IMG/VR virus record: IMGVR_UViG_3300031658_000103
Coordinates: 1 to 25,595 of that record
Strand: one strand, 5' to 3'
Length of the DNA: 25,595 bases
DNA from: a virus
Made by a program: the position numbers and the translations under genes. The notes below the pieces were generated by a model, which saw only the letters and a list, made by a program, of their open reading frames with translations, was not told the DNA's origin and made no database searches. Within the stretch, counting starts at the first letter, position 1, and each line of letters begins with the position of its first letter. Of this stretch, positions 3,554 to 24,591 are shown piece by piece.

Positions 3554-3879
3554 TGTATTGTGATGAGTGTGGTCAAGAGAAAACTTATTTACTTACGGAG
3601 GAAGATATGATCCAAGCAGAAGAAGAGATGATAGCTGATGCAGAACCACAATTAAATGATCAGTGGAAAGGTGGAGCTACTAACATAAGACCTGCTTACT
3701 ATGCTAAGTATAAGATAGATCCTTGGACTTTTATTATAGAAAACCAATTGGGTATGGATGTAGGTAGTGTGGTAAAATATGTAGTTAGACATCAAGATAA
3801 GAATGGAGTTGAAGATTTAAATAAAGCAATCAAATGTTTAGAGATGATGAAGGAGCACTACTACAATGAAAAAGGTTAA
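3532..3879 (+). CDS. DUF3310 protein (T7 gp1.7 dNMP-kinase related)
   Basis: Residues ~55-112 carry the DUF3310 signature: a YY pair, then IDPWTFIIENQ, GSVVKYVVRH, KNGVEDLNKA and a helical end. In T7 the same domain forms the C-terminal part of gp1.7, a nucleotide kinase acting on dGMP and dTMP; whether this shorter 115-residue protein is a kinase is not shown. The N-terminus has a CDEC pair (C10, C13) with no second pair, so a full zinc ribbon is not evident. The start ATG 3532 follows AGGGGAGG (3517-3524); ATG 3553, after the exonuclease stop, is a weaker alternative. Its place between the exonuclease and MazG/reductase genes supports a role in nucleotide supply. Confidence 0.85.
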   Translation: MGAVKSLMYCDECGQEKTYLLTEEDMIQAEEEMIADAEPQLNDQWKGGATNIRPAYYAKYKIDPWTFIIENQLGMDVGSVVKYVVRHQDKNGVEDLNKAIKCLEMMKEHYYNEKG

Positions 3880-4240
3880 AGAGTTTCACAAGAAGATGGA
3901 GTTAGCTATTGATCAACCTTATAGTAAAGAGCTAATGAACTTTAGACTCCAGTTATTATTTGAGGAGATACAGGAGTTAGCTACTGCTGCTTTAGATGTA
4001 GAAGAAGCAGAAGATAGTAGGGAAAGAAATGTTTTAATGCAAAAATTATTGAAAGAAATGTGTGATGTTGTTTATGTTATTAAAGGTATGGCTGTATCCT
4101 TTGGTATGGATTTTGACCAAGCTTTTAAACTAGTACATAAAAGTAACATGAGTAAACTACCTTTATTAAAAGATGCTGATGGTAAGGTCCAGAAAGGACT
4201 GAACTATGAGCCTCCTATGCTGGAGGGTTTAATTAATTGA
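3866..4240 (+). CDS. MazG-like nucleotide pyrophosphohydrolase
   Basis: An all-alpha MazG/PRA-PH-type protein of 124 residues. The metal-binding pattern E33-E34-x-x-E37 followed by E64-x-x-D67 is visible, as is the C-terminal HKSNMSKLP segment and the DGKVQKGLNYEPP tail seen in phage MazG-like proteins. These enzymes hydrolyse nucleoside triphosphates to monophosphates and pyrophosphate; in marine phages they have been linked to nucleotide pools or ppGpp, but the substrate here is unknown. ATG 3866 overlaps the DUF3310 gene by 14 nt with AAGGAG 10-11 nt upstream. Its TGA stop overlaps the TTG start of the reductase, so the two are probably translated together. Confidence 0.86.
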   Translation: MKKVKEFHKKMELAIDQPYSKELMNFRLQLLFEEIQELATAALDVEEAEDSRERNVLMQKLLKEMCDVVYVIKGMAVSFGMDFDQAFKLVHKSNMSKLPLLKDADGKVQKGLNYEPPMLEGLIN

Positions 4241-6141
4241 CAAGTGTAAGAGCACAGGTAATAACCAGACGTACATACAATAGACCTACAGATACAGGCT
4301 ATGAAACGTGGGAGCAGACAGTTGATAGAGTGATACAGCATCAAGCTTGGCTCTGGGATAGAGCAGGAACCTCAGATATAACTGAGCTTGTAGAGCTAAG
4401 AGAACTAATGATTAGTAGGAAGGTAATGGTTAGTGGTAGAACATTGTGGTTAGGAGGAACTGATGTAGCTAAGAAGCGTGAGGCTAGTCAGTTTAATTGT
4501 TCACATTTAAAAGTGGAGACTATTCATGACGTTGTCGACTCTCTATGGCTCTTGCTTCAAGGGTGTGGTGTGGGTTTCACGCCTGTTGTCGGTACACTCT
4601 CTGGTTTCACATCACCTATCAGAAATATTCAAGTGCTACGTTCTAAGCGAACTAAAAAAGGAGGACACGAGGGAAACAGAGAGTCTTCCGATAATGGGAC
4701 TTGGACGATTACAGTTGGAGACTCCGCTGAAGCATGGGCAAAGTCTATCGGTAAGGTTCTGGCATATAAAGGGAAAGCTACAAATTTCGTACTCGATCTC
4801 ACACAACTCAGACCAGCAGGACAACGTCTCTCAGGATATGGGTGGATCTCTTCAGGTGATGGGCCAATGTCACGAGCCTTCACAGAAATCGTTGGGATTC
4901 TAAACAAGAAGTCAGGACAGTTGCTAGGTAAGATAGACATCCTAGATATTATGAACTGGTTAGGTACTGTTCTATCTTCTAGGAGATCAGCAGAGATAGC
5001 CTTGGTCTACCATGATACTCCAGAGTGGGAAGAGTTTGCTAGAGCCAAGGAAGATCTATCAGCATCACCACACAGAGCACAGTCTAATAACAGTGTAGTC
5101 TTTTGGAAGGAGCCTAGTCATGAGCAACTTGAACAACTCTTCAAGATCATCTCAGAATCAGGAGGATCAGAACCTGGATTTATCAACGGAGAAGAAGCTA
5201 GGAAACGTGCTCCTTGGTTTAGTGGAGTCAATCCCTGTGCAGAAATTCTCCTTGGAAACAAATCTTTCTGCAACCTCTCCGAAGTGGACCTCAGCAAATT
5301 CAGAAATGATAGCGGAGGACTTGAACGAGCTATGTATCTTATTGCCAGAGCCAACTATCGTCAAACTCTTGTCAATCTTGATGATGGCATATTGCAAAGA
5401 ACATGGCATGAGAACAATGAGTATCTCAGGTTATGTGGAGTTGGACTTACAGGGATTGCTACGAGGCAGGACTTATCACAGTATGACTACAAGCGACTAC
5501 GTAATATAGCAGTACATGGTGCATACTCTATGGCAGATGAGCTAGGTACTCAGCGTCCTAAGAATGTAACAACTATTAAACCTAGTGGAACACTGAGTAA
5601 GATCATGGATACCACTGAGGGTTGTCATAAACCTATGGGTAAGTACATCTTTAACAATGTTAACTTTAGTATCAATGATCCTATGCTTCCTAGACTTAGA
5701 GAAGCAGGGTATCATGTTGTTATTAATCCTACTGATGAGCATAATGCTATCGTAACATTCCCTGTATCTTGGGAGAACATAAGGTTTGATAAGGAGGGAG
5801 ATTTATATGTTAATAACGAGACGGCTATTGAACAGCTTTCACGCTACAAGTTACTCATGGATTCTTACGTTGAACAGAACTGCTCGATTACGATATCTTA
5901 TAAAGAAGATGAAGTCCCTGCTATTAGAGATTGGCTTAAAAGTAATTGGTCTAGCTATGTTGGTGTTAGCTTTCTTCCCATTACTAATACTGTCTACGAA
6001 TACCTTCCACAAGAAGTAGTAACTGAGGCTAGGTACAAGGAGTATGTAGCACAGCTAACTGATGTAGACTTTAGTGACACTGATAGTACCCATGAAATAG
6101 AGAACGATGAGTGTGAGTCTGGTGTATGTCCTGTTAAATAG
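4237..6141 (+). CDS. Class II (adenosylcobalamin-dependent) ribonucleotide reductase, monomeric type
   Basis: A 634-residue enzyme reducing ribonucleoside triphosphates to deoxynucleotides for phage DNA synthesis. Diagnostic residues match the monomeric Lactobacillus-type enzyme: C88 (QFNCSH) and C345 (FCNLSE) as the redox pair, N332-P-C334-A-E336 as the radical-site loop, with the same 11-residue spacing between the thiyl cysteine and second cysteine, the TTIKPSGTLSKI phosphate-binding loop, and a C-terminal C626-x4-C631 pair that would re-reduce the active site. It has no glycyl-radical or diiron features, so it should need B12 but no oxygen or partner subunit. The start is TTG 4237, behind GGAGGG at 4222-4227. 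It is shorter than the roughly 739-residue Lactobacillus enzyme, but all catalytic residues are present. Confidence 0.95.
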   Translation: MTSVRAQVITRRTYNRPTDTGYETWEQTVDRVIQHQAWLWDRAGTSDITELVELRELMISRKVMVSGRTLWLGGTDVAKKREASQFNCSHLKVETIHDVVDSLWLLLQGCGVGFTPVVGTLSGFTSPIRNIQVLRSKRTKKGGHEGNRESSDNGTWTITVGDSAEAWAKSIGKVLAYKGKATNFVLDLTQLRPAGQRLSGYGWISSGDGPMSRAFTEIVGILNKKSGQLLGKIDILDIMNWLGTVLSSRRSAEIALVYHDTPEWEEFARAKEDLSASPHRAQSNNSVVFWKEPSHEQLEQLFKIISESGGSEPGFINGEEARKRAPWFSGVNPCAEILLGNKSFCNLSEVDLSKFRNDSGGLERAMYLIARANYRQTLVNLDDGILQRTWHENNEYLRLCGVGLTGIATRQDLSQYDYKRLRNIAVHGAYSMADELGTQRPKNVTTIKPSGTLSKIMDTTEGCHKPMGKYIFNNVNFSINDPMLPRLREAGYHVVINPTDEHNAIVTFPVSWENIRFDKEGDLYVNNETAIEQLSRYKLLMDSYVEQNCSITISYKEDEVPAIRDWLKSNWSSYVGVSFLPITNTVYEYLPQEVVTEARYKEYVAQLTDVDFSDTDSTHEIENDECESGVCPVK

Positions 6142-13018: not shown

Positions 13019-15502
13019 ATGCCCTTAATTACTGAGCAAATAAGTAACCTAATAAATGGTGTTTCACAGCAACCTCCTAGTTTACGATTAGCATCCCAAG
13101 CTGAAGTACAAGAAAATGGGATGGTTACTATTGCTGAAGGTCTTAAGAAAAGACCACCTTTAGAACATGTAGTAAAGCTTAATAACAAAACAGATACAGA
13201 TGCTAAGGTTCACTTTATAGACAGAGATGCTAATGAAAGATATGTAACTCTTATTACTTCAGATCAATTTGATACTGCATTTTCTAGTGATTACTCTGGA
13301 ACAGCTTTAGAGGTCTTTAGTATAGATGATCCTGTTAATCCTTGGGATACTTCTTTTAGTACATCTTATGGTCCTAATGATTATAGCCGTAGTCTTTCTG
13401 GTATTCAAGGAGAAGATTTAGATTACATTAGAGTTAACGATGCTAGAGATACTATTAAATTATTCACTGTAGCTGACTTTACTTTCTTATTAAATAAAAA
13501 TAAAGTTGTAGCTAAGAGTGGTCTTTCAGGTGAGATACGTGATCCTGAAGGCATTGTTTTTCTAAAGCAAGCTACCGCTGATACAACCTTTAAAGTTTTT
13601 TTAGATGGAGCTGATGTAGGTTCTATTTCAGCTGATGCTAACGCTGATACTTTAGTTAACAACATATCTACTGCTATGGCTACTCCAGGATATACAATTA
13701 CTAAGTTTGGTAGTAGTAATGTTCATGTTACTAAGAATGATGGGTCAGACTTCACACTACATGCTGAAGCTCCTGAAACTAACATGATAGCTATTAAAGA
13801 TACCATAGTAGATTTCACAGATCTTCCTGCTAGAACCAAAGATGGCTTTACTATTAAAGTAACAGGAGATCCAGAGAGTACTACAGATGATTACTGGTTA
13901 TATCATGTCAATCAATCTGATGATGATGTTGGTGAATGGGTAGAAACTGTAGAACCTGGATTAGATAATGATCTTAATGCTGCTACTATGCCTATTAAAT
14001 TAGTTAGGGCTTCTCCTTATCCTTGGGATAAAGCATTTTCTGATGACTTTGGTAGACCTAGTTTTTCTTTATCTCAAATAGAGTGGACAGAAAGAATAGC
14101 TGGTGATGAAGAAACAGCTCCAGATCCTTCTTTTATTGGTCAAAGAATTAATGACATGTCTTTCCATAAAAACAGATTGGCTATACTAGCTGGTGAGAAT
14201 GTTATACTTTCTGAATTAGGTGGGTTCTTTAACTACTATGCAACCACTGCTACAGATCTCTTAGATACAGATATGATTGATCTTTCTGCACCTACTAATG
14301 AAGTAAGTATCTTACATAACTTTGCACCCTTTAATGAAAACTTAATGATCTTCAGTGACTTTGGACAGTTTAAATTGTCAGAGTTTGCTGCTGGAGGATT
14401 GACTCCAACCAATGCTAAACTATCTTTACTAACACAGTACCAATCTGATAAACTTGTAAAACCTGTAGTTAATGGTAGAAAGATTTACTTTAGTGATGAG
14501 AATGATGGGTTCAGTGTTATACGAGAATTTGGTATCATAGAAGATTTACAAGAAGAGACAGCTGAAAATATTACAAGTCATATACCTAGTTACATAAAGG
14601 GTAAAGGCTTTGAAATTATTCCTCATGAAGAATTTTTATTTGTATTATCAGATCAGAATCTTAATGAGATATTTGCTTATAAATTCTTATTTCAATCAGG
14701 AGCAAAGAAGTTAAGTTCTTGGTCTAAGTGGGTATTCAAGCCTGAAGAAAAAGTTATAGGTATGAAGATCATAGAACATATAGCATACTTTGTTATAGTA
14801 AGACCTGATGGTACATACCTAGATAAGATGTCTTTACAAGATGCTAACCTAGTGAATCTTCCAGAGTCTGATACTCAACTTCCATTTAAGGTACACCTTG
14901 ATAGACTAGTAGAGTCTAAAGGAATATACGATATATTAACTGACATCACTACTTGGTCAGTACCTTATCCAGATAACTTTGGGTCTACCTTTAGAGTAGT
15001 CCTTGGTCCTGCGTGGACAGGTAGAGAGGGTTCTTTAGTACAAGGTATATCCCAGACTAGCAGAAGTGATACAACGCTACTGACAGCTTCTGGGGACTTC
15101 TCTAAGCATAATGTATTTATAGGTAAAGAGTACCAGTTCTTGTATGAGTTTACAGAGCCTACTATTAAAACAGAAGTACAAGGTAGACAGACTGCACTTG
15201 CAGGGGGTATACTTAAGATACGTAAGTTTAATGTAGATTACTTTCGTACTGGTTACTTTAAAATGAGAGTAACTGCTTTAGGTAGAGATGCATTTGATCA
15301 TATCTTTACAGGTAGAATACTAGGTTCTCCTCTTAATCAGATAGGAACTATACCATTTGAAACAGGATCGTTTAAGAAGTTAATATTATCTGATGCCAGT
15401 AATTTAAAAATAGAACTAATTTCTGATTCTTACTTACCATGTTCTTTTACAGGAGCTGATTGGGAAGGTAATTATGTAACTAGGACTATTAGTAGAAGGT
15501 AA
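13019..15502 (+). CDS. Tail tubular protein B / nozzle (T7 gp12-like)
   Basis: An 827-residue nozzle protein (T7 gp12 is 794). The N-terminus is diagnostic: QISNLINGVSQQPPSLR followed by QENGMVTIAEGLKKRPPLEHV. Further family blocks are the PYPWDKAFSDDFGRPSFS segment, SFHKNRLAILAGENVILSE, FNENLMIFSDFGQFKLSE, the QYQSDKLVKPVVNGRKIYFS stretch, and the C-terminal FRTGYFKMRVTALGRD region. In T7, six copies close the tail tube and hold the fibres. ATG 13019 follows the gp11 stop directly. The beta-rich fold and length support a full-length, intact gene. Confidence 0.95.
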   Translation: MPLITEQISNLINGVSQQPPSLRLASQAEVQENGMVTIAEGLKKRPPLEHVVKLNNKTDTDAKVHFIDRDANERYVTLITSDQFDTAFSSDYSGTALEVFSIDDPVNPWDTSFSTSYGPNDYSRSLSGIQGEDLDYIRVNDARDTIKLFTVADFTFLLNKNKVVAKSGLSGEIRDPEGIVFLKQATADTTFKVFLDGADVGSISADANADTLVNNISTAMATPGYTITKFGSSNVHVTKNDGSDFTLHAEAPETNMIAIKDTIVDFTDLPARTKDGFTIKVTGDPESTTDDYWLYHVNQSDDDVGEWVETVEPGLDNDLNAATMPIKLVRASPYPWDKAFSDDFGRPSFSLSQIEWTERIAGDEETAPDPSFIGQRINDMSFHKNRLAILAGENVILSELGGFFNYYATTATDLLDTDMIDLSAPTNEVSILHNFAPFNENLMIFSDFGQFKLSEFAAGGLTPTNAKLSLLTQYQSDKLVKPVVNGRKIYFSDENDGFSVIREFGIIEDLQEETAENITSHIPSYIKGKGFEIIPHEEFLFVLSDQNLNEIFAYKFLFQSGAKKLSSWSKWVFKPEEKVIGMKIIEHIAYFVIVRPDGTYLDKMSLQDANLVNLPESDTQLPFKVHLDRLVESKGIYDILTDITTWSVPYPDNFGSTFRVVLGPAWTGREGSLVQGISQTSRSDTTLLTASGDFSKHNVFIGKEYQFLYEFTEPTIKTEVQGRQTALAGGILKIRKFNVDYFRTGYFKMRVTALGRDAFDHIFTGRILGSPLNQIGTIPFETGSFKKLILSDASNLKIELISDSYLPCSFTGADWEGNYVTRTISRR

Positions 15503-15507
15503 ACATA

Positions 15508-15981
15508 ATGTTAAGGATAAGGGCGTACATGAAGCCGTATCATAGAGTATCTACATTAGATGACATGGTATATTTATCAAAGAATCTAAGGTATGAAGAT
15601 AAACGTGAAGTAGAAACACTAGGACATACTCCTGAAAAAGCTTTAGCCTTAGGCTTTGGCAACAGTAGTATCTGTAGGTCTATCATAGATGCACGTGGTA
15701 CACCTGTAGGAGTCTATGGTGTAGTCCCATTGTCTGACAAGATAGGACAGATTTGGATGTTAGGATCACAAGGTTTAGTTAAGATCAAGACTGCTTTCCT
15801 TAAACAATCTAGATCAGAGGTAGAAGGTATGAATACTATATATCCCCACCTATGTAATTTCATAGACAGCCGTAACGAGATTCACCTTAAGTGGATCCGC
15901 TGGTGTGGCTTTAAGATAATTGGAGAAAAGATGATTAATAATGTGAAGTTTTATGAGTTCTGCAAGGTGGCTAGCTTATGA
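15508..15981 (+). CDS. gp13-like protein, GNAT-type fold (DUF2833-like)
   Basis: A 157-residue protein (T7 gp13 is 138) in the gp13 position between nozzle and gp14. The pattern RGTPVGVYGVVPL, then IGQIWMLGSQGL, then FIDSRNEIHLKWIRWCGF resembles the acetyltransferase-like fold reported for this phage family, with the final W-x-x-W-C-G-F block typical of the GNAT C-terminus. In T7 the product is needed for correct assembly of the internal core; enzymatic activity is unproven. ATG 15508 has AGAAGGT a few bases upstream. The stop overlaps the next start. Confidence 0.8.
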   Translation: MLRIRAYMKPYHRVSTLDDMVYLSKNLRYEDKREVETLGHTPEKALALGFGNSSICRSIIDARGTPVGVYGVVPLSDKIGQIWMLGSQGLVKIKTAFLKQSRSEVEGMNTIYPHLCNFIDSRNEIHLKWIRWCGFKIIGEKMINNVKFYEFCKVASL

Positions 15982-16568
15982 TGCCTGAGGGTTACATGAT
16001 GTTACAAGCTTTAAGCACAGGGTTTTCTATTTTTGATAGAGCAGCTACATATAGCGACCAAACTTCTCAAGTATATGCACAGTATGATGCAGCTCAAAGA
16101 CAAGCAGCTCTCCAAAATGAAGCTACTTATAATAGTTTTCTACATTTAGGAGAAGTCCAACAATTAAATGCTAAAAAACATTCTATAGGACTTTCAGAAT
16201 TATACAGAGTTGCTAGAAGAACTAGAGCTTCTGAAAAGGTTTTAGCTTATCAGCAAGCTGGAAGTGCTTCTCAAACTGGAGCTAAAAGATTACAAGTATT
16301 AAATGCTGAAGCTCTTACAGCAGCTCGTAGAAAAAATGAGAACTTTGAAACAGTAGTTAAAGACTTTGAGAATAAAAGAAAGAATCTTACTCTTGAAAAT
16401 ATTAATGCTAATAATAAAACTTTTAGTGGTTTAAGTGCATTACCTAGCAAAACAGGACTTGTTACTGGTATTGCAGGAGATCTTATAAACGCTAAATTGT
16501 CTATAGGTTATGGAACAGATGCTTCTGGTAAAGTATTTGATAGGTTCGCTCCTGATAAAGGTAATTAA
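15978..16568 (+). CDS. Internal virion protein B (T7 gp14-like)
   Basis: A 196-residue protein, identical in length to T7 gp14. It is alanine- and glutamine-rich and largely helical (QYDAAQRQAALQNEATYNSF, RVARRTRASEKVLAYQQAGS), with the QAGSASQTGAKR stretch typical of gp14-type proteins. In T7, gp14 is ejected first and forms a pore in the outer membrane. The start is ATG 15978 or 15981, behind AAGGTGG (15963-15969), overlapping the gp13-like stop. The glycine-containing end contains no obvious membrane helix, so pore formation is inferred from the family and position. Confidence 0.88.
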   Translation: MMPEGYMMLQALSTGFSIFDRAATYSDQTSQVYAQYDAAQRQAALQNEATYNSFLHLGEVQQLNAKKHSIGLSELYRVARRTRASEKVLAYQQAGSASQTGAKRLQVLNAEALTAARRKNENFETVVKDFENKRKNLTLENINANNKTFSGLSALPSKTGLVTGIAGDLINAKLSIGYGTDASGKVFDRFAPDKGN

Positions 16569-16571
16569 ATA

Positions 16572-19500
16572 ATGGCACAATCATCAAATAGGTTTGGCTT
16601 AGATGAAGTTAACACACAGCTAACCGCACCTACTAGCAACGTCCAAGTACAAGGACCACTTAATACCAATTTAACAACTAGTACTAGATCAAAAGGATTT
16701 ACAGATTTTAGTAATGCTGTAGCAGGTCTTGCTAGAAAAAAGTTAGCTAATAAAATACATAATGATACAGTAGATGCATTGTTAGATGCTGCAGATGGTA
16801 AAGAAAGAAACAAAAAGTGGGAACCTGAAGCTGAATATGCTTTTAATTATGCCATAGATTTACAGGAATTTGATAAACTTAAGAATAATCTAGCAAATTT
16901 CTCTATTGTAGAAGGTACTAATATTCTTAATGATAGTACGTTAAGTAGAAAAGAAAAGCTTAGTAACTATCAAACAGGTATGCAAAATAATATTAATACA
17001 GCCTTACAAGCCTTTACTCCTAGTAATTATTCTAAGTTTTCTCCTTTAATTGATAAAGAATATAGTAGATATAGTCTTATTGCATCTACAGACTTAGCTA
17101 AACAAAAGAAAGAAGAAGATTCATCTACAAATGCTGCAGCTATTACTGCAAATGTTAATATTGCTTATGATGCAACAGCTAGAAATATTGCTGATCAACT
17201 GGCTGATAGAAAGGATGGTGTTGGAAAAGGCAATGATTTTTCTGGTACTGGATATGATGATGACCTTAGCCCTAAAGAATTTGCAAAATTAACTATAGAT
17301 GCTACTAATCTTGTATCTTCTAAAGGTTTGTCTGTTACTGCTTTTAACACTATAGTTAATCAAACTCAATCAACTGGAGTTGGGGCAGACAATAGAGAAA
17401 CTAAAGCAACTGTATTTGCTGCTATGATAGTTAGATTACTTAAGGCTGCTGAGGAAGGAGATTTTGTTGTTGATCGAAAAATTGTAAGTAACCTTATGAA
17501 TAAAGTTAAAGGAAATCCACAATCTCCAAATTCTACTATAAGAACTGAGATTACTGGAAATACTCCATATGGTACAATATTTAAAACTATTGAAGATGGA
17601 TTTGATAGTAATCTTAAAACAATTTTAACTAATAAAAGAACTTTAAAAAACCAAGCAATAGTTGATGCAGACAATAAAATAGGTAATATTCTATTTGATA
17701 ATGTTGAAAAGTTTACTCAAAAACAAGGGCAAGAAATGCTTAAAGGTATGGGTAATATTAATTTACAGCTAACATCAACAAAGAGATGGAATGCTTTGTT
17801 TACAGATGCAGCTCTAAATGGGTCTACTTCTGCTGCTTATGTAACAGCTTTAATAGGAGCACATAAGGCAGTCTTAAAACCTAATGGTAAGGAAATCGAT
17901 GAAATAGCTTTTTCTACCTATGTTTACGAACATAAACTTAAGCCTGAAGCAGCTACAAAATTAAGAACTGCAGTAGATCCTGAGTCCAAAGCAGCTAAAC
18001 ATAGGACTGCTGTATTACAAAACAAATCAATAGATTTACTTTTAACTAGCTTTACATCAACAACTAAAGCTTATCTTAAAAACTTAAATATAGCTGAAAT
18101 AACTAGAATAGCTAATGGTCTACAAGCAGGAGAAGCTCTTCCTAATAATTTAATATTATCAAAACTAAAAACAAAATTAGGAGCTAATTCACCTGTTTTT
18201 AATAAAGCATCTCAGATACTTAACGCTGAACTTGAGTTTACTGAACAACTAGAAAGTTTAATATTAAACAATCCTGATAAAGAACCTACAGAATTAGTTA
18301 AAGAAGCTAAACAAATGTTTAATGATTTATTTGCAGATGTTGTTACAGATAAAAAAGTTGGAACTACAGCAACAGATAGAGATCTAGAAACACTTAATAC
18401 TGTATTGGAAAAACGTAAGTTAATGGAAGCAGGTTCAGGAGCGGTAACACTTACAACAGCAGGATCAGGAAAAGGAACACTTAAAGAAGCTGCTATACAA
18501 ACAAAAACTGCATTAAGTGTAGCTTTAAATGAATCAGACAATCCTGAGGCTACTAAAAAGTATATAGAGATAGCTTCACAGGAAGTAGCAGCAGCACAAA
18601 AAGCTATATCAAATGAAGCTAATTTTAAAGTATTAACTAGAGGTGAAAAGTTAAAAATAGTAATGGCAAAAGGAGGCAGACCTACAGCTTCTGAAAGTGC
18701 TAAGAGAACTGTAGATGCTTTTGAAACTAACCCTGATGCTTTTATTGTGTTACGATCTAGAGCTTTACAAGACAAAGCTACAGAAGAAAATGTTGACAAA
18801 AAGATTAAAGCTCAAATGGAAAAGAATAGAGAAGCAGGTAAAGAAATATTTAGTATAGGTAATTTTCAACTTACAACAGATGAAGCTAAAAAAGCTTATG
18901 GAAATGTAAAGCATTATCTTAAAGGTTTTTATGATATAATTAGTGATGCAGACACTCCTGAAGCTAAAGCTGAACGACAGAAGGTTCAAGCTCAATCAGA
19001 TAAAACTACAGCTGCACTTGAAAATACAACAAAGGAGATAAATAAAAAAGATATTAGTATTCCTAGGGATGTTTCAAGTGATACATCTGGGGATGCTGAA
19101 CCTTTTCCTGTAATTAAAGAAGAAACAAAAGAATCCAACAAGGTGAGTAGCGTTGAACCTGAACTTTCAACAGCTCAAAAAATAGCTTCTGCTATTAATA
19201 CAGTTGTTGGTTCAGGAACAGCTAAAGCATTTGGAAAACCATTTGAAGAACTTCCAGAGGAAATTAAGGTTCTTCCTAAAAAGTTTCAATATATAACAGA
19301 CGAAGATGCTGTCAAAAGTATTAAAAGAAATAATCCATTTAATGTAGAAAAAGGTGAAAATTGGCAGGGATTAGTTAAGTCAGATAGTAATAGATTCTTT
19401 GCTACTGATACTCCATTAAACGGATTAAGAGCAGGATATATAAATATCTTAGCTAAACTTAAAAGAGGTAAAACTTTAGGTGAAACTATTCAAATTCTTT

Positions 19501-20384
19501 CACCAAAATCAGATAATAATCCTACTTCTGCCATGATTAAATTAGCAGAAAATATGTCTGAAGTTGGAAAAAATGATAAGTTAGAAGTTTCTATGGATAA
19601 CTTTGAAAAAATAAAACAACTTGGTTTAGGTCTTCTTAAGTTTGAAGCTCCTAACCATAATTATCCAGATAGTTTAATTGATGAAGCTGTAAAATTAGCT
19701 ATTGAGCAAAAAACAAATGTTGGATTAAAATCAACAGTTAAGGGTAAAGAATTTTATCCTCCATCAAAATCAGATTTTAAAGTAAAGAAAATTAAACCTA
19801 TAGTAGAAAAAGGTAGTATACTTAAGTCTTTATTTGAAATGCCTAGAAAGGTTTTTAATGAAGTTGTTCCTGATAATTTAAGGTTTTTTACTTCTTATTT
19901 AAAGGATAATAAAATACTAAGTCCTAATACTAAAAAACCAGTTGTTACAGAAAAAGCTTTATCTAGTGGAGTTCAGTCAGTCTTAATGAAAGCGGTTAAG
20001 AAAGCAATATCTTCTGGTAAAACTAATGTAGATTATTCTGATTATCCTGATACGTCTTTTGGAATGTCAGTTCCTGCTATAGTTGCTGCAAAAGGTAGAA
20101 GTAAAGAAGAATATAAGGAAGCTAAAGATCGTTATCCACAAGGTTGGTTAGGAAAAGCTAGGTTATTATTAGACAGCTCTGATGATGTTGTGTCAGCAGC
20201 AACCACAATAGGCGGTTTTAATTTTAAAATTATAAATGGAGATGTTGTTATTACGGATATTTATGATTTTAGTAAGTATGGTGGTAAAGAAGATTCTGCT
20301 TATGCAGAAGTTAGAAAAGATGTCCATACTAAAAAAGGTAATATTGTTTATCAAGTAAGAGCTAATTTAGGTAAACTTACATGA
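16572..20384 (+). CDS. Internal virion protein C (T7 gp15-like) with putative peptidoglycan-cleaving domain
   Basis: A 1270-residue protein, much larger than T7 gp15 (747), assigned by position between gp14- and gp16-type genes. Residues 1-~860 are mainly helical and Lys/Ala/Asn-rich, as expected for the periplasmic tunnel protein. Residues ~915-1030 form a distinct domain: R919-N-N-P-F-N, then W-x-G-L, RFFATDTPLNGLRAGYINIL, GETIQILSP and a further NNPTSAMIKL, the pattern of small phage murein-hydrolase/transglycosylase-like domains. The C-terminal ~120 residues end in GGFNFKIINGDVVITDIYDFSKYGG, perhaps another small module. AAAGG lies just before ATG 16572. The family link to gp15 is by context, not motif. 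Confidence 0.85.
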   Translation: MAQSSNRFGLDEVNTQLTAPTSNVQVQGPLNTNLTTSTRSKGFTDFSNAVAGLARKKLANKIHNDTVDALLDAADGKERNKKWEPEAEYAFNYAIDLQEFDKLKNNLANFSIVEGTNILNDSTLSRKEKLSNYQTGMQNNINTALQAFTPSNYSKFSPLIDKEYSRYSLIASTDLAKQKKEEDSSTNAAAITANVNIAYDATARNIADQLADRKDGVGKGNDFSGTGYDDDLSPKEFAKLTIDATNLVSSKGLSVTAFNTIVNQTQSTGVGADNRETKATVFAAMIVRLLKAAEEGDFVVDRKIVSNLMNKVKGNPQSPNSTIRTEITGNTPYGTIFKTIEDGFDSNLKTILTNKRTLKNQAIVDADNKIGNILFDNVEKFTQKQGQEMLKGMGNINLQLTSTKRWNALFTDAALNGSTSAAYVTALIGAHKAVLKPNGKEIDEIAFSTYVYEHKLKPEAATKLRTAVDPESKAAKHRTAVLQNKSIDLLLTSFTSTTKAYLKNLNIAEITRIANGLQAGEALPNNLILSKLKTKLGANSPVFNKASQILNAELEFTEQLESLILNNPDKEPTELVKEAKQMFNDLFADVVTDKKVGTTATDRDLETLNTVLEKRKLMEAGSGAVTLTTAGSGKGTLKEAAIQTKTALSVALNESDNPEATKKYIEIASQEVAAAQKAISNEANFKVLTRGEKLKIVMAKGGRPTASESAKRTVDAFETNPDAFIVLRSRALQDKATEENVDKKIKAQMEKNREAGKEIFSIGNFQLTTDEAKKAYGNVKHYLKGFYDIISDADTPEAKAERQKVQAQSDKTTAALENTTKEINKKDISIPRDVSSDTSGDAEPFPVIKEETKESNKVSSVEPELSTAQKIASAINTVVGSGTAKAFGKPFEELPEEIKVLPKKFQYITDEDAVKSIKRNNPFNVEKGENWQGLVKSDSNRFFATDTPLNGLRAGYINILAKLKRGKTLGETIQILSPKSDNNPTSAMIKLAENMSEVGKNDKLEVSMDNFEKIKQLGLGLLKFEAPNHNYPDSLIDEAVKLAIEQKTNVGLKSTVKGKEFYPPSKSDFKVKKIKPIVEKGSILKSLFEMPRKVFNEVVPDNLRFFTSYLKDNKILSPNTKKPVVTEKALSSGVQSVLMKAVKKAISSGKTNVDYSDYPDTSFGMSVPAIVAAKGRSKEEYKEAKDRYPQGWLGKARLLLDSSDDVVSAATTIGGFNFKIINGDVVITDIYDFSKYGGKEDSAYAEVRKDVHTKKGNIVYQVRANLGKLT

Positions 20385-20397
20385 AGGATACATATAG

Positions 20398-23300
20398 ATG
20401 GTATTAGAATTTAATCCAAACAGACAGGATGAAGCAGAGCAGTTTCATGCTGTAAAAAGAGCTAGAAAGAATTATGAAGGCTCTAAACAGGAAGAAAAGG
20501 ATATAGACACAGTAGCTTTTGAAAACGAAAGAGGAGAAGTTACTGAATTAGAAGAAGAAAAATCTAATAAAGGACATGATGGTTTTATTGAATCTGCCAT
20601 AGAATTTGTTCCTGATGTTCTTACTGGATTAGGTAGAGCAACTGAACAAGTATCAAGATCTTTAGGTGGACCTGAAAACATCTTTAATTTTGAACCACCT
20701 GATGATACAGCTAGTCATGTTATTCAAACCTTTTTTCAGTTTGCTGGTCCTGCAGCTTTAACTATAACTCCTGTAGGAAGAGCTACAGCTACTGTTGCTT
20801 TTCTAGCTAAACATAAAACAATAAAAAGAGTTTTAGATTCTGCTTTAGCAGGTCTTCCTGTAGATGCTTTTGCATTTGCACCTGAAGACGGTAATGCATT
20901 TAACTTCTTAATTACCGCTTTAGGTGTTTCTGAAGACTCTAGAACTGGTGCGGTTATTAAAGAATACTTAGCAGTAGATCCTGCTGATACAGAGCTTAAA
21001 GCCAGAGCTAAGAATGCACTAACTGGTATTGTTGGTAGTGTTATGTTTGATATGATTATTAGAATAGCTGGTGGTACTATAAAAACAGGATACAGAGCTG
21101 CTAAAAATATATCTAAAGGTAAAGTACAACTACTTGATACTGATGTTCCCCATGCTAATAAAGTCTTTTCAGGTAAAACACAGACAGATGGTACAGCTCC
21201 ATCTCCTAGTGAGTTACAGACCCCACAAATTAAAGATGAAGTAGTACCAGATGAAGGAAAGTTTTCAGATGAAGAACTTAAAGAAGTTACAGATGAATTA
21301 GGAGCTAACTTTACAGATACTTTAGATAGAGGACAAGCATCATTATCGCCAGAAGAAATGTCTTTTGTTGGAAGTAAATTTTCAAATAGAGAATCAGGTG
21401 ATATTAGAGCTGCCGATAAAGAAGTAGCTGATGGTGCTGAATTTTATCATTCCTCTACTCCTGAAGCACAAACTCAAATGAGAGAAGTATTTGAGAAGGT
21501 TTTTAATGGTGAAAAATTATCTGATATTGAATTAGATAGTATGAATCCTTTTAATCTTACTAAGCTTAATTCACCTACTGAAAGAATACAGATTATAGCA
21601 CAGTTAGGGGAGATTATGAAAGACACTCTTCCTAGAAACCTTAGTGATGCTGCTAGAGCTGCTCGTAGAGAACTCTTAGATGAACAGATAGCTAAACAAA
21701 TTAAGTTTTTTGGAGCAGATCCTGAAACGTTTCTTAAGAATCTACAGAAAGCTGCTCCTACAGTAGAAGGACAGATTCAGTTTCTTAGAGCAGGTAAAAC
21801 TTTTACTGATTTACAAGTACAAAAGGCTTTACGTGAGGTAGGAAAATCTATAGTAAAAAGAACTAAAGAGGCTACTTCCTCTGCAACAGCTCATATGCTT
21901 AATGCAATGAATGCTGCTAGAGCTACTAGTGGTCTTAATACTTCTTTTGGTAGAGGTCTTGCAGAACTTAAAAATACAGCTGATGCTGGTGATTTAGCTA
22001 GTCAGACAAATCTTATTAAAGCTAAGATGGTCAATGATATTATGGTGGCTACACCTGAATTGGGAGCTAAACGTGATGGTATACTAAATAACTTAGAAAG
22101 TTTATCTAAGCTAGAACGTGAGGCTTCTCCTGAAGATTTTGGTAAAGTAAAGAAAGAACGTACTGCTCAGGAACTTGCTGTATCTAACACTAAAAGATTA
22201 GAAAAACAATTAGCTGATTTAAAAGCTGGTAAAACAACTATTAAAAATAAACGTGAGATAACTCTAGAAGAAAAAAGACTTAAAAAAGAAATTAAAGATA
22301 TAAGAAAAGCTTCTCCTAAGAAAGTTAGGAGTGATGAAGAGTTAGCTAATGCTAATATTAAAAGAATACAACAACGTATTAAAAATCTTAAATCAGGAAA
22401 GACTCCTACTAAATCTAAAAGAGACCTAACTGAACTTGAAGAATCTTTAAGAACAGAAGAAAGAGCACTTTTAGCTGAAAAAAGAATTACTGAAATACTT
22501 TCTGCTGATGATCTACAAGCTCGTCAAAGATTACGATTTATGGAGCTTAGTCTTAAAGCTAAATCCAGAGATATTCTTACAGAAATATACATCAATGGAC
22601 TTCTTTCTAGTATTAAGACTTCTGTAGTAAATTTTACAGGTAATTCTACAGCTACAATTTCTTCTATTTTTGAAAGAGCCTATGCTGGTGCAACTAATGA
22701 TTCTATTGATGGTGTAACATTAGGTGAAGCTGCACAATTAACATGGTCTTATGTTAATTCTTTTGGGGATTTTTGGAGAACCTTTTTCTATGCAGCTAAA
22801 AATGGACCTAGTACTAATGCTATTAAAAGTGATCTTATTACTGTTCATAACCAATCTATTAGTGGTGCTATTTTAGGTATAGGAGGTAATGTAGGTAAAG
22901 CTATAGATGGTGTTGGATGGGCTGTTAATCTTCCTGGTAGAATGTTATTATCTATGGATGAAGCTTTTAAAATGATTCATTATAGAGCACAAATAGATGC
23001 TTTATCTTATAGAAAAGCACGTAATATATTAGGAGATGGAGCTAGTAACAGTGCTATAGCTTTAAAACATAGTGAAATTAAGAACGATGTATTAAACCAT
23101 AAAGATATTTTAGCTGAAGCTAAAGATTTTTCAGAACTTAATACCTTTACTAATAAACTTCCTGAAATAGATCACTTTGATTCAAAAACAAATACAACAA
23201 GACAAGTAGATGGATTATCTAGAACCTTTAAAAAGTTATTAGACAGAGATCCAACAGGACTGATGAGAACCTTTATACCTTTCTTTCAAACTCCAGTTAA

Positions 23301-24591
23301 TCTTTTATCTTATGCAGGACAGCGTACTCCTTTTATTAGAAAATTTAGTCAAAAACTTCAAAGAGAACTAAGCGGTGACTTAGGATTAGCTACTAAACAA
23401 CTAGCTGAAGCTAAAGTAGCTACAGGTAATATGATGTGGGCTACAACTATGGGAATGGCTATGACAGGAAATTATACAGGTGCTCCTCCTGTAGACTATA
23501 AATTAAGAATACAACAAGAAGAAGCTATGGGTGGAGCTTTTTGGTATAGTAGGTTAACTAAAGATGGTTGGGTTCCTTATAATAAATTTGATCCTTTAGG
23601 AATCATGCTTGCAGGTTCAGCTAATATGGCTAATCTTGTTAGAAGTATTATTGATTTAACAGGACAAGGTAACAAAGATGGTTATACTGCTGAACTTATG
23701 GAAGCATTTAATCAAACATTTGCTGATGCTGTAGTAGGTACTGCACGTTTAGTTACTGATAGGCATTATTTACAAGGATTTGGTAATCTTATTGATATGT
23801 TAACAGGAGATCCTAGAGGTTTTAGTAAAGGAGCTACTAATTTAGCTACTGCTCTTGATCCTACAGCTAGTTTCTATTCTAGTTTTAGGCGTAATAGAAA
23901 TAAAGATTTAAACCCTGAAAAAGAAACTCCTCTTAAACAAGCTGAACAAGAAATTACAGATCCGTTAACTGCTGGTTGGAATACTATGTCTGTTGCTCTT
24001 AATGATTCTTTTGAAAACTCTCAAAGTCTTTTATTTGGAGGAGGTCAACGTCCTGCTGCTAGAAATCATATGGGAGAAGTTAAGTTCTTTCCAGCTACTG
24101 CTGCTAGTGATGAACTTAATATTGGTATTTGGAAAAGTTTAGCTGATATAAGAAATGAAATGGGTTTAGGAACTGCTAGTATTAACCCATTTGCTGAAGC
24201 TAAAAAGAAAAATAATCCTGTAATGAATAAACTAGCTTCTTTAGGTTCTACGTTATCTAGTCCTTCTCAATGGGAAGACGTAGATGGAGTTAAAATAAAT
24301 CAGGAGGAACATACTTTTTACGTAGATATTTATGTAGAACTTAATCAACAACAAAAACTAGAAAATTGGGTTCTTTCTAAATCTTTTAATAATTTACCTG
24401 AAGCTATGCAATTAGATCAATTAGAAAGTAGACTCCAACTTAATAGAAATATTGCTGAAATACGAACTGCTTCTAAGTTTTCAAGACTTAGAGATGCTAG
24501 TACTAAAAATCTCTTAAATAATATTAGAGAAGAGTTTGCTGAAAACTTACCTCAACGAAGTCAACAATCTCTTTTTAACCTAGGAAACTAA
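20398..24591 (+). CDS. Internal virion protein D (T7 gp16-like)
   Basis: A 1397-residue core protein (T7 gp16 is 1318) ejected into the cell, where in T7 it helps pull in the genome. Order: acidic charged N-terminus, a hydrophobic region (~90-240, including FFQFAGPAALTITPVG and VGSVMFDMIIRIAGG), helical middle, a tandem helical repeat (592-697), then hydrophobic segments typical of gp16-type proteins: GRMLLSMDEAFKMIHYRAQ and FFQTPVNLLSYAGQRTPF from residue 962. I do not see the N-terminal SLT lytic transglycosylase motif of T7 gp16. The start ATG 20398 follows AAGGATA about eight bases upstream, 13 nt after the gp15-type stop. Confidence 0.9.
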   Translation: MVLEFNPNRQDEAEQFHAVKRARKNYEGSKQEEKDIDTVAFENERGEVTELEEEKSNKGHDGFIESAIEFVPDVLTGLGRATEQVSRSLGGPENIFNFEPPDDTASHVIQTFFQFAGPAALTITPVGRATATVAFLAKHKTIKRVLDSALAGLPVDAFAFAPEDGNAFNFLITALGVSEDSRTGAVIKEYLAVDPADTELKARAKNALTGIVGSVMFDMIIRIAGGTIKTGYRAAKNISKGKVQLLDTDVPHANKVFSGKTQTDGTAPSPSELQTPQIKDEVVPDEGKFSDEELKEVTDELGANFTDTLDRGQASLSPEEMSFVGSKFSNRESGDIRAADKEVADGAEFYHSSTPEAQTQMREVFEKVFNGEKLSDIELDSMNPFNLTKLNSPTERIQIIAQLGEIMKDTLPRNLSDAARAARRELLDEQIAKQIKFFGADPETFLKNLQKAAPTVEGQIQFLRAGKTFTDLQVQKALREVGKSIVKRTKEATSSATAHMLNAMNAARATSGLNTSFGRGLAELKNTADAGDLASQTNLIKAKMVNDIMVATPELGAKRDGILNNLESLSKLEREASPEDFGKVKKERTAQELAVSNTKRLEKQLADLKAGKTTIKNKREITLEEKRLKKEIKDIRKASPKKVRSDEELANANIKRIQQRIKNLKSGKTPTKSKRDLTELEESLRTEERALLAEKRITEILSADDLQARQRLRFMELSLKAKSRDILTEIYINGLLSSIKTSVVNFTGNSTATISSIFERAYAGATNDSIDGVTLGEAAQLTWSYVNSFGDFWRTFFYAAKNGPSTNAIKSDLITVHNQSISGAILGIGGNVGKAIDGVGWAVNLPGRMLLSMDEAFKMIHYRAQIDALSYRKARNILGDGASNSAIALKHSEIKNDVLNHKDILAEAKDFSELNTFTNKLPEIDHFDSKTNTTRQVDGLSRTFKKLLDRDPTGLMRTFIPFFQTPVNLLSYAGQRTPFIRKFSQKLQRELSGDLGLATKQLAEAKVATGNMMWATTMGMAMTGNYTGAPPVDYKLRIQQEEAMGGAFWYSRLTKDGWVPYNKFDPLGIMLAGSANMANLVRSIIDLTGQGNKDGYTAELMEAFNQTFADAVVGTARLVTDRHYLQGFGNLIDMLTGDPRGFSKGATNLATALDPTASFYSSFRRNRNKDLNPEKETPLKQAEQEITDPLTAGWNTMSVALNDSFENSQSLLFGGGQRPAARNHMGEVKFFPATAASDELNIGIWKSLADIRNEMGLGTASINPFAEAKKKNNPVMNKLASLGSTLSSPSQWEDVDGVKINQEEHTFYVDIYVELNQQQKLENWVLSKSFNNLPEAMQLDQLESRLQLNRNIAEIRTASKFSRLRDASTKNLLNNIREEFAENLPQRSQQSLFNLGN
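22171..22488 (+). repeat. Tandem 56-residue helical repeat inside gp16-like protein
   Basis: Two consecutive units, residues 592-647 and 648-697, align without gaps: ELAVSNTKRLEKQLADLKAG with ELANANIKRIQQRIKNLKSG, KTTIKNKREITLEEKRLKKE with KTPTKSKRDLTELEESLRTE. Each looks like two helices joined by a Lys/Thr-rich turn. It suggests a duplicated charged helical hairpin. Confidence 0.88.

Follow-up and report, generated by a model that had tools for sequence, protein, structure and literature searches.

Lysins in gp15-type ejection proteins of podoviruses are already published. The articles cited here report that gp15-like proteins of phages K1E and K1-5 bear the lysozyme activity that T7 has on gp16, and describe domain swapping across ejection proteins as thematic (PMC8954989); that lysozymes occur in SP6 gp36, a K1-5 protein and phiKMV gp36, where the domain is C-terminal (PMC5380687); and that in phage PhiM1 a lysozyme-like domain is part of the outer ejection protein, while the gp16-type protein contains an endolysin-like one (PMC11440229). 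A further kind of wall enzyme is the catalytic domain of the Enc34 endolysin, which has been described as consisting of helices alone and as a permuted relative of GH73/GH23 (PMC8943055). The purified domain is muralytic, degrading Gram-negative peptidoglycan, and was proposed to be a beta-N-acetylglucosaminidase, with Glu131, Trp79 and Tyr95 as a conserved catalytic signature common to it and to GH73/GH23 (PMC8943055). PM2 P5 has been joined to the same family (PMC9502842). For M4Lys, an Enc34 relative, the bond specificity obtained was unclear (PMC7143992). Our literature search, limited for most articles to titles in result lists or to excerpts, gave no report of a gp15-type ejection protein that carries an Enc34-type domain. 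Here we describe such a domain, strongly diverged, near the C-terminus of the protein in the gp15 position of a virus fragment from IMG/VR (record IMGVR_UViG_3300031658_000103, positions 1 to 25,595). This whole 25.6-kb stretch (25,595 nt), which is part of a T7-like podovirus of marine type, is referred to below as the window.

The protein in question (P0001; 1270 aa) is encoded at positions 16572 to 20384 by an ORF that lies between a gp14-type gene (PF24072) and a gp16-type gene (phrog_6651); this ORF, its parts and the neighbouring virion genes are all on the + strand. It is labelled gp15-type from its gene position only, and in BLASTP comparisons at E<=1e-3 its body had no match to T7 gp15, SP6 gp36 or phiKMV gp36. 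Residues 911–1046 (positions 19302 to 19709) make up a glycosidase-fold domain of a divergent Enc34 type (PHA02564/phrog_873), as indicated by profile and tblastn searches and by the predicted fold. The simplest reading is that the C-terminus of the gp15-type protein is a swap slot, occupied here by a divergent and possibly catalytically weakened module.

The domain contains the motifs RNNPFN (residues 919–924), NWQG (930–933), GLRAGY and SDNNPTS. An earlier note on this DNA had placed a peptidoglycan-cleaving domain at positions 19314 to 19661, the first of which corresponds to codon 915. The motif is indeed located in this ORF and its family match is far beyond chance, the phrog_873 "endolysin" profile matching the domain with E=3.1e-13 (2.8e-15 when all six frames of the window were searched); the proposed end, however, falls slightly short, since the folded domain extends to about residue 1046 (19709). 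When the full gp15-type protein was used as a tblastn query, 155 phage records were retrieved (best E 9e-10), and the matches listed all cover the domain stretch; with the domain alone, 411 records matched at E<=1 (best 5e-13). The PPR-repeat matches that topped one search list were set aside as repeat artefacts, as no single stretch among them passes alone. With single full-length proteins as queries, viral_contigs yielded no relatives for P0001 and one for the gp16-position protein (P0002), while queries based upon alignments added further relatives for the domain and the gp15-type body and none further for gp16.

An AlphaFold model built on a 26-row alignment was confident only in the domain, where pLDDT values per ten-residue block were mostly 78–95. 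Among the structures on the comparison list, its only clear match is the Enc34 domain, PDB 7q47 (Z=16.9 over 133 residues at 2.3 A by VIA; Foldseek E=1.1e-6), the next row of that list having a Z of 5.2. The family profile also matches PDB 9vvp chain L (E=9e-52), where the domain is at the N-terminus; a search by structure code only found no paper for 9vvp. The profile search and structure prediction that the earlier note had proposed thus both point to a hydrolase fold. An assignment of the domain to a relocated SLT or a PRD1-type transglycosylase was rejected, as fold and profile indicate the separate Enc34/PM2-P5 type.

The catalytic residues were mapped through the 7q47 chain, in which the residue number is that of the paper plus 1. 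The final comparison set consisted of 204 loci besides that of the window, of which 190 match at E<=1e-3; one was too short, and 95 non-redundant sequences were kept. Most of these loci were located through their NNP.N motif, with likeness to the window domain as confirmation, so that conservation of the motif is partly by construction, which does not apply to conservation of the Trp and Tyr. The position of catalytic Trp79 is aromatic in all 95 relatives (87 W, 4 Y and 4 F) and is Leu976 in the window (19497 to 19499); that of Tyr95, a Tyr in every relative, is Met988 (19533 to 19535). The Glu131 position, Glu in 95/95, is retained as Glu1025 (19644 to 19646), and Trp931 of the NWQG motif (19362 to 19364), a Trp in 91 of the 95, is likewise retained. 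An earlier set of 87 loci gave a similar picture, with Trp in 84 (two Tyr and one gap) and with Tyr and Glu in all ungapped sequences (86/86 and 85/85, respectively). With the conserved Trp and Tyr gone, cleavage by the domain is uncertain. It is a divergent Enc34-type homologue and, with Leu and Met in these places, we have not filed it among active enzymes; what the earlier note called peptidoglycan-cleaving therefore holds for the presence of a hydrolase fold in the gp15-type protein and is insecure as to cleavage.

Besides Glu1025, the domain keeps N920, N921, P922, N924, W931, G933 and R953. Identity to the family consensus falls with decreasing conservation, from 14/24 columns in the top band (conserved in >=90%) to 10/25, 8/22 and 15/59 (33/106 for the less conserved columns together). 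As the conserved columns are kept better than the less conserved ones, constraint on the domain has not gone; on this pattern the fold is still constrained, with an unusual catalytic rim. Relative to the commonest family residues the rim shows the changes R to I, W to L, Y to M, H to F, N to A and G to P, and as the whole active-site rim departs in this manner, a sequencing error behind the lost residues was dropped as an explanation. A separate 233-aa protein (L099) with a very similar motif (NNPLNVEKGENWQGM) keeps all three catalytic residues.

A sister contig, IMGVR_UViG_3300032011_000244 (L002/L095), is colinear with the window over genes 12–16. The identities are 73% for gp12, 80% for gp13, 62% for gp14 and 73% for gp16, and the gp15-type proteins are 42% identical over aa 1–790 (16572 to 18941), a value that applies to this conserved body only. 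The remaining ~480 aa of the window protein, including the stretch of aa 791–910 that precedes the domain (18942 to 19301), have no similarity to the sister protein. The latter (1267 aa) instead ends in a predicted phage lysozyme at aa 1153–1239 (PF00959, E=2.6e-5, above the cut-off), a match that misses the N-terminal 27 positions of the profile (18 in a six-frame search); PDB lysozymes also match, with E~1e-5. In another relative (L096 4578–6672) the gp15-type ORF stops at aa 599 and a homologous continuation is present close to where the contig ends, in a different frame, which may reflect a frameshift or a sequencing error.

Other records also carry lysins in ejection proteins. A Brevundimonas prophage (L171) has an Enc34-type domain in which the three residues are intact at the C-terminus (aa 822–960) of its gp15-position protein, the gene of which is preceded by gp13- and gp14-type genes, and an ejection protein assigned to phrog_26400 (L157) also ends in such a domain, with Phe in place of the Trp; the Enc34-type end-piece has so been acquired in several lineages, or it is old. 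Based upon Pfam, a lysin is found in the gp15-position protein of one and in the gp16-position protein of none of the five marine or freshwater relatives HTVC119P, HTVC011P, CRP-227, CRP-403 and S-SRP01, and SLT is absent from all five genomes. The gp15-position protein of Synechococcus phage S-SRP01 (L007 1882–5040) has tandem lysins, a glucosaminidase and an M23 peptidase.

Among 12 comparison records, SLT was present only in T7. Phage lysozyme was found in four, namely in the gp15-type proteins of SP6 and phiKMV (gp36 in each), likewise in the sister contig, and as separate endolysins in phiKMV and HTVC119P. The phrog_873 family was found in three: in epsilon15 gp15 and in the gp16-type proteins of SH3 and MP2. 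Kayfunavirus SH3 gp40 has the body of T7 gp16 (its aa 128–1294 match T7 gp16 155–1314), with the SLT replaced by an Enc34-type domain. As this distribution and the case of SH3 gp40 show, the kind of lysin and its place within the set of ejection proteins are freely exchanged. The same replacement is seen in Kayfunavirus gp16-type proteins (L014 4998–8885; 9vvp chain L), which many records name transglycosylase. As regards epsilon15, its record (L009) shows gp13–gp16 virion genes with the lysin in gp15, and Table 1 of PMC8954989 gives gp11–gp13 of other sizes as ejection proteins.

The gp16-position protein of the window (P0002; 1397 aa, 20398 to 24591) was identified by a match of aa 846–1163 to the internal virion protein family phrog_6651 (E=4.6e-16). 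The earlier note had seen no SLT pattern in it, and this observation is borne out at the level of sequence: a six-frame search of the window with SLT (PF01464) gave no match at E<=10, the same library detecting the SLT of T7 gp16 at 1.7e-31, and neither the Pfam results for the protein nor a simple motif scan shows an SLT. More generally, no lysin was found in this protein by Pfam, PHROGs, NCBIfam or PDB sequence searches. A structure prediction of its residues 1–720 had a mean pLDDT of 41 on a two-row alignment, which is too shallow.

Based upon these results, we propose that the C-terminal third of the gp15-type protein serves as a swap slot for peptidoglycan-acting modules, and that in the window phage this slot holds a strongly diverged domain of Enc34-type glycosidase fold. 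At infection, the gp15-type protein would exit the capsid and help to build a trans-periplasmic tunnel, its tail end would sit among the glycan strands, and the remaining Glu would cleave nearby glycan at a low rate, giving the tunnel a way through the wall. Of this, the order of the genes, the domain family and fold, the residues kept and lost and the unrelated, lysozyme-bearing end of the sister protein come from the data, and a place in the virion, ejection and residual cleavage are inferred. That the slot carries an end-piece which meets glycan after ejection, and which probably still cuts weakly by means of its Glu, has in our estimate an even chance of being correct. Several observations weigh against it. 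Only one of the three proposed catalytic residues (E1025) is left, the Trp and Tyr being gone; the domain has lost 10 of the 24 columns conserved in >=90% of sequences, as compared to a maximum of 6 among the 95 relatives, 59 of which lose none; and its terminal branch is the longest of 96 (2.25, the median being 0.28). There is only one close relative with a resolved gp15-type C-terminus (L002); L096 and L097 break off before it. Further, the window covers a fragment only, so that a different virion lysin may be encoded beyond it. The same loss of the Trp and Tyr, which is unique in comparison to the 95 relatives, together with the lost columns and the long branch, would fit a pseudo-hydrolase that keeps the Enc34 fold and groove and does not cut, but holds the tunnel to the glycan mesh or is a structural part of the core, the wall being crossed at gaps already present or with the help of another enzyme. 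The retained NNP.N/W.G loop agrees with this, and a review on T7 (PMC8954989) states that the wall enzyme of T7 gp16 is needed only in certain conditions, so its loss could be affordable. The retained Glu, which a pure binding domain does not need, speaks on the other side, and we consider this explanation plausible but the less probable of the two. Its more specific form, in which the ejected domain without its two catalytic aromatics grips glycan and thereby docks the DNA tunnel to the wall, is a rather doubtful one.

It is improbable that the domain is a decaying relic without a role and that a lysin which has escaped recognition, either within the gp16-type protein or beyond the window, opens the wall. 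In PhiM1 the endolysin-like domain of the gp16-type protein is in the hub and not at the N-terminus, according to PMC11440229, and most of the window gp16-type protein is without a known fold and is poorly modelled over the 720 residues noted above, both of which leave room for such a lysin. However, the reading frame of the gp15-type ORF is unbroken across 1270 aa, the conserved columns of the domain are better kept than the others, and none of the four kinds of search described above found a lysin in the gp16-type protein. The interpretation of the earlier note, that the gp15-type protein received the wall-opening activity itself from the gp16-type one, could draw upon the presence of the Enc34-type family in both positions, as it is found at the gp16-type N-terminus in Kayfunavirus SH3, Morganella MP2 and 9vvp chain L. 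Against this, SLT and Enc34-type domains are different families, and in the FastTree phylogeny of the 96 domains that of the window pairs with L132 (support 0.63) and not with SH3 or MP2, in a tree that is weak as the domains are short and long-branched. In addition, the gp15-type slot of the sister, the gp16-type protein of which is 73% identical, already holds an unrelated lysin, so replacement within the slot is simpler than a transfer from gp16 to gp15, and we hold such a transfer to be very improbable.

The C-terminal part of the gp15-type protein that follows the domain contains a stretch (aa 1122–1240; 19935 to 20291) resembling Roseobacter phage SIO1 gp23, with 25% identity and a BLASTP E of 3e-8 in a single comparison; in the collection search the likeness had E=0.06–0.2 only. 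The tail as a whole (aa 1046–1270) matched no Pfam or PHROG family, its structure model was poor, and an attempt to widen the similarity to SIO1 gp23 gave 80 pattern matches and no confirmed relatives. SIO1 gp23 (L100 6839–7441) is a separate 200-aa protein, and its gene adjoins the endolysin-like gp24 (phrog_90 E=3.4e-13). It is possible, on these similarities, that the module is an accessory piece travelling with lysins.

The gene order in this region of the window is nozzle, gp13-type, gp14-type, the 1270-aa protein, the 1397-aa gp16-type protein and a T7-type tail fibre. The gp12-type nozzle protein (13019 to 15502) was identified by PF25675 (E=3.1e-207) and the gp13-type internal virion protein (15508 to 15981) by phrog_308 (E=1e-34). 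The gp14-type internal virion protein (15978 to 16568) matches PF24072 (T7_gp14) with E=1.4e-4 and 22.3 bits, which is under the curated cut-off of 27, and phrog_805 with E=0.0042. The portal protein most resembles the portals of, among others, Bordetella BB8, LUZ100, and Roseobacter CRP and Pelagibacter phages. Elsewhere in the window, positions 3866–6141 contain a gene for a MazG/PRA-PH-like pyrophosphohydrolase followed by one for a B12-dependent ribonucleotide reductase of class II that starts with TTG, and an ORF at 2353–2898 overlaps the end of the DNA polymerase gene. The latter has CxxC and CHH residues, which we take to resemble an HNH endonuclease motif; Pfam gives no match.

The results presented here suggest that the end of the gp15-type protein is a place where unrelated wall enzymes are exchanged between sister phages, with an Enc34-type domain in the window and a lysozyme in its sister, and the more distant S-SRP01 carries its glucosaminidase and M23 peptidase at this protein. 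They also provide a natural case, in a little-studied enzyme family, where two of the three proposed catalytic residues are changed and the Glu is retained. The domain bears on whether the Trp and Tyr are needed and on whether a podophage must have any cutting enzyme at all in order to get through the wall. If the domain is a pseudo-hydrolase, it would represent a wall-binding rather than a wall-opening ejection module, in the slot where the sister keeps a lysozyme.

In comparison to the systems described previously, the window domain shares with the catalytic domain of the Enc34 endolysin (ORF39, 7q47) its fold, profile, position of the catalytic Glu and NNP.N...W.G loop, but it is only 26% identical and has Leu and Met in place of Trp79 and Tyr95; moreover, ORF39 is a lysis-cassette endolysin with a membrane tail, whereas the window domain is part of a 1270-aa ejection protein. 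In epsilon15 gp15 and its relatives (L009 and many prophages) the domain is similarly part of a virion protein encoded downstream of gp13-/gp14-type genes; there, however, it lies mid-protein (aa ~246–378 of 842) and the Trp, Tyr and Glu are all kept. The gp16-type proteins SH3 gp40 and 9vvp Gp29 also have an Enc34-type domain in an ejected core protein, but at the gp16 N-terminus in the place of SLT and, again, with Trp, Tyr and Glu intact. The position of the domain is shared with SP6 gp36, the K1-5/K1E proteins, phiKMV gp36 and the outer ejection protein of PhiM1, where a lysin is present towards the C-terminus of the gp15-position protein, although the lysin in these cases is a phage lysozyme or lysozyme-like and not of the Enc34 type. 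Lastly, the sister contig has colinear genes 12–16 and a related gp15-type body (42% over aa 1–790), and differs from the window in that its protein ends in an unrelated C-terminus with PF00959.

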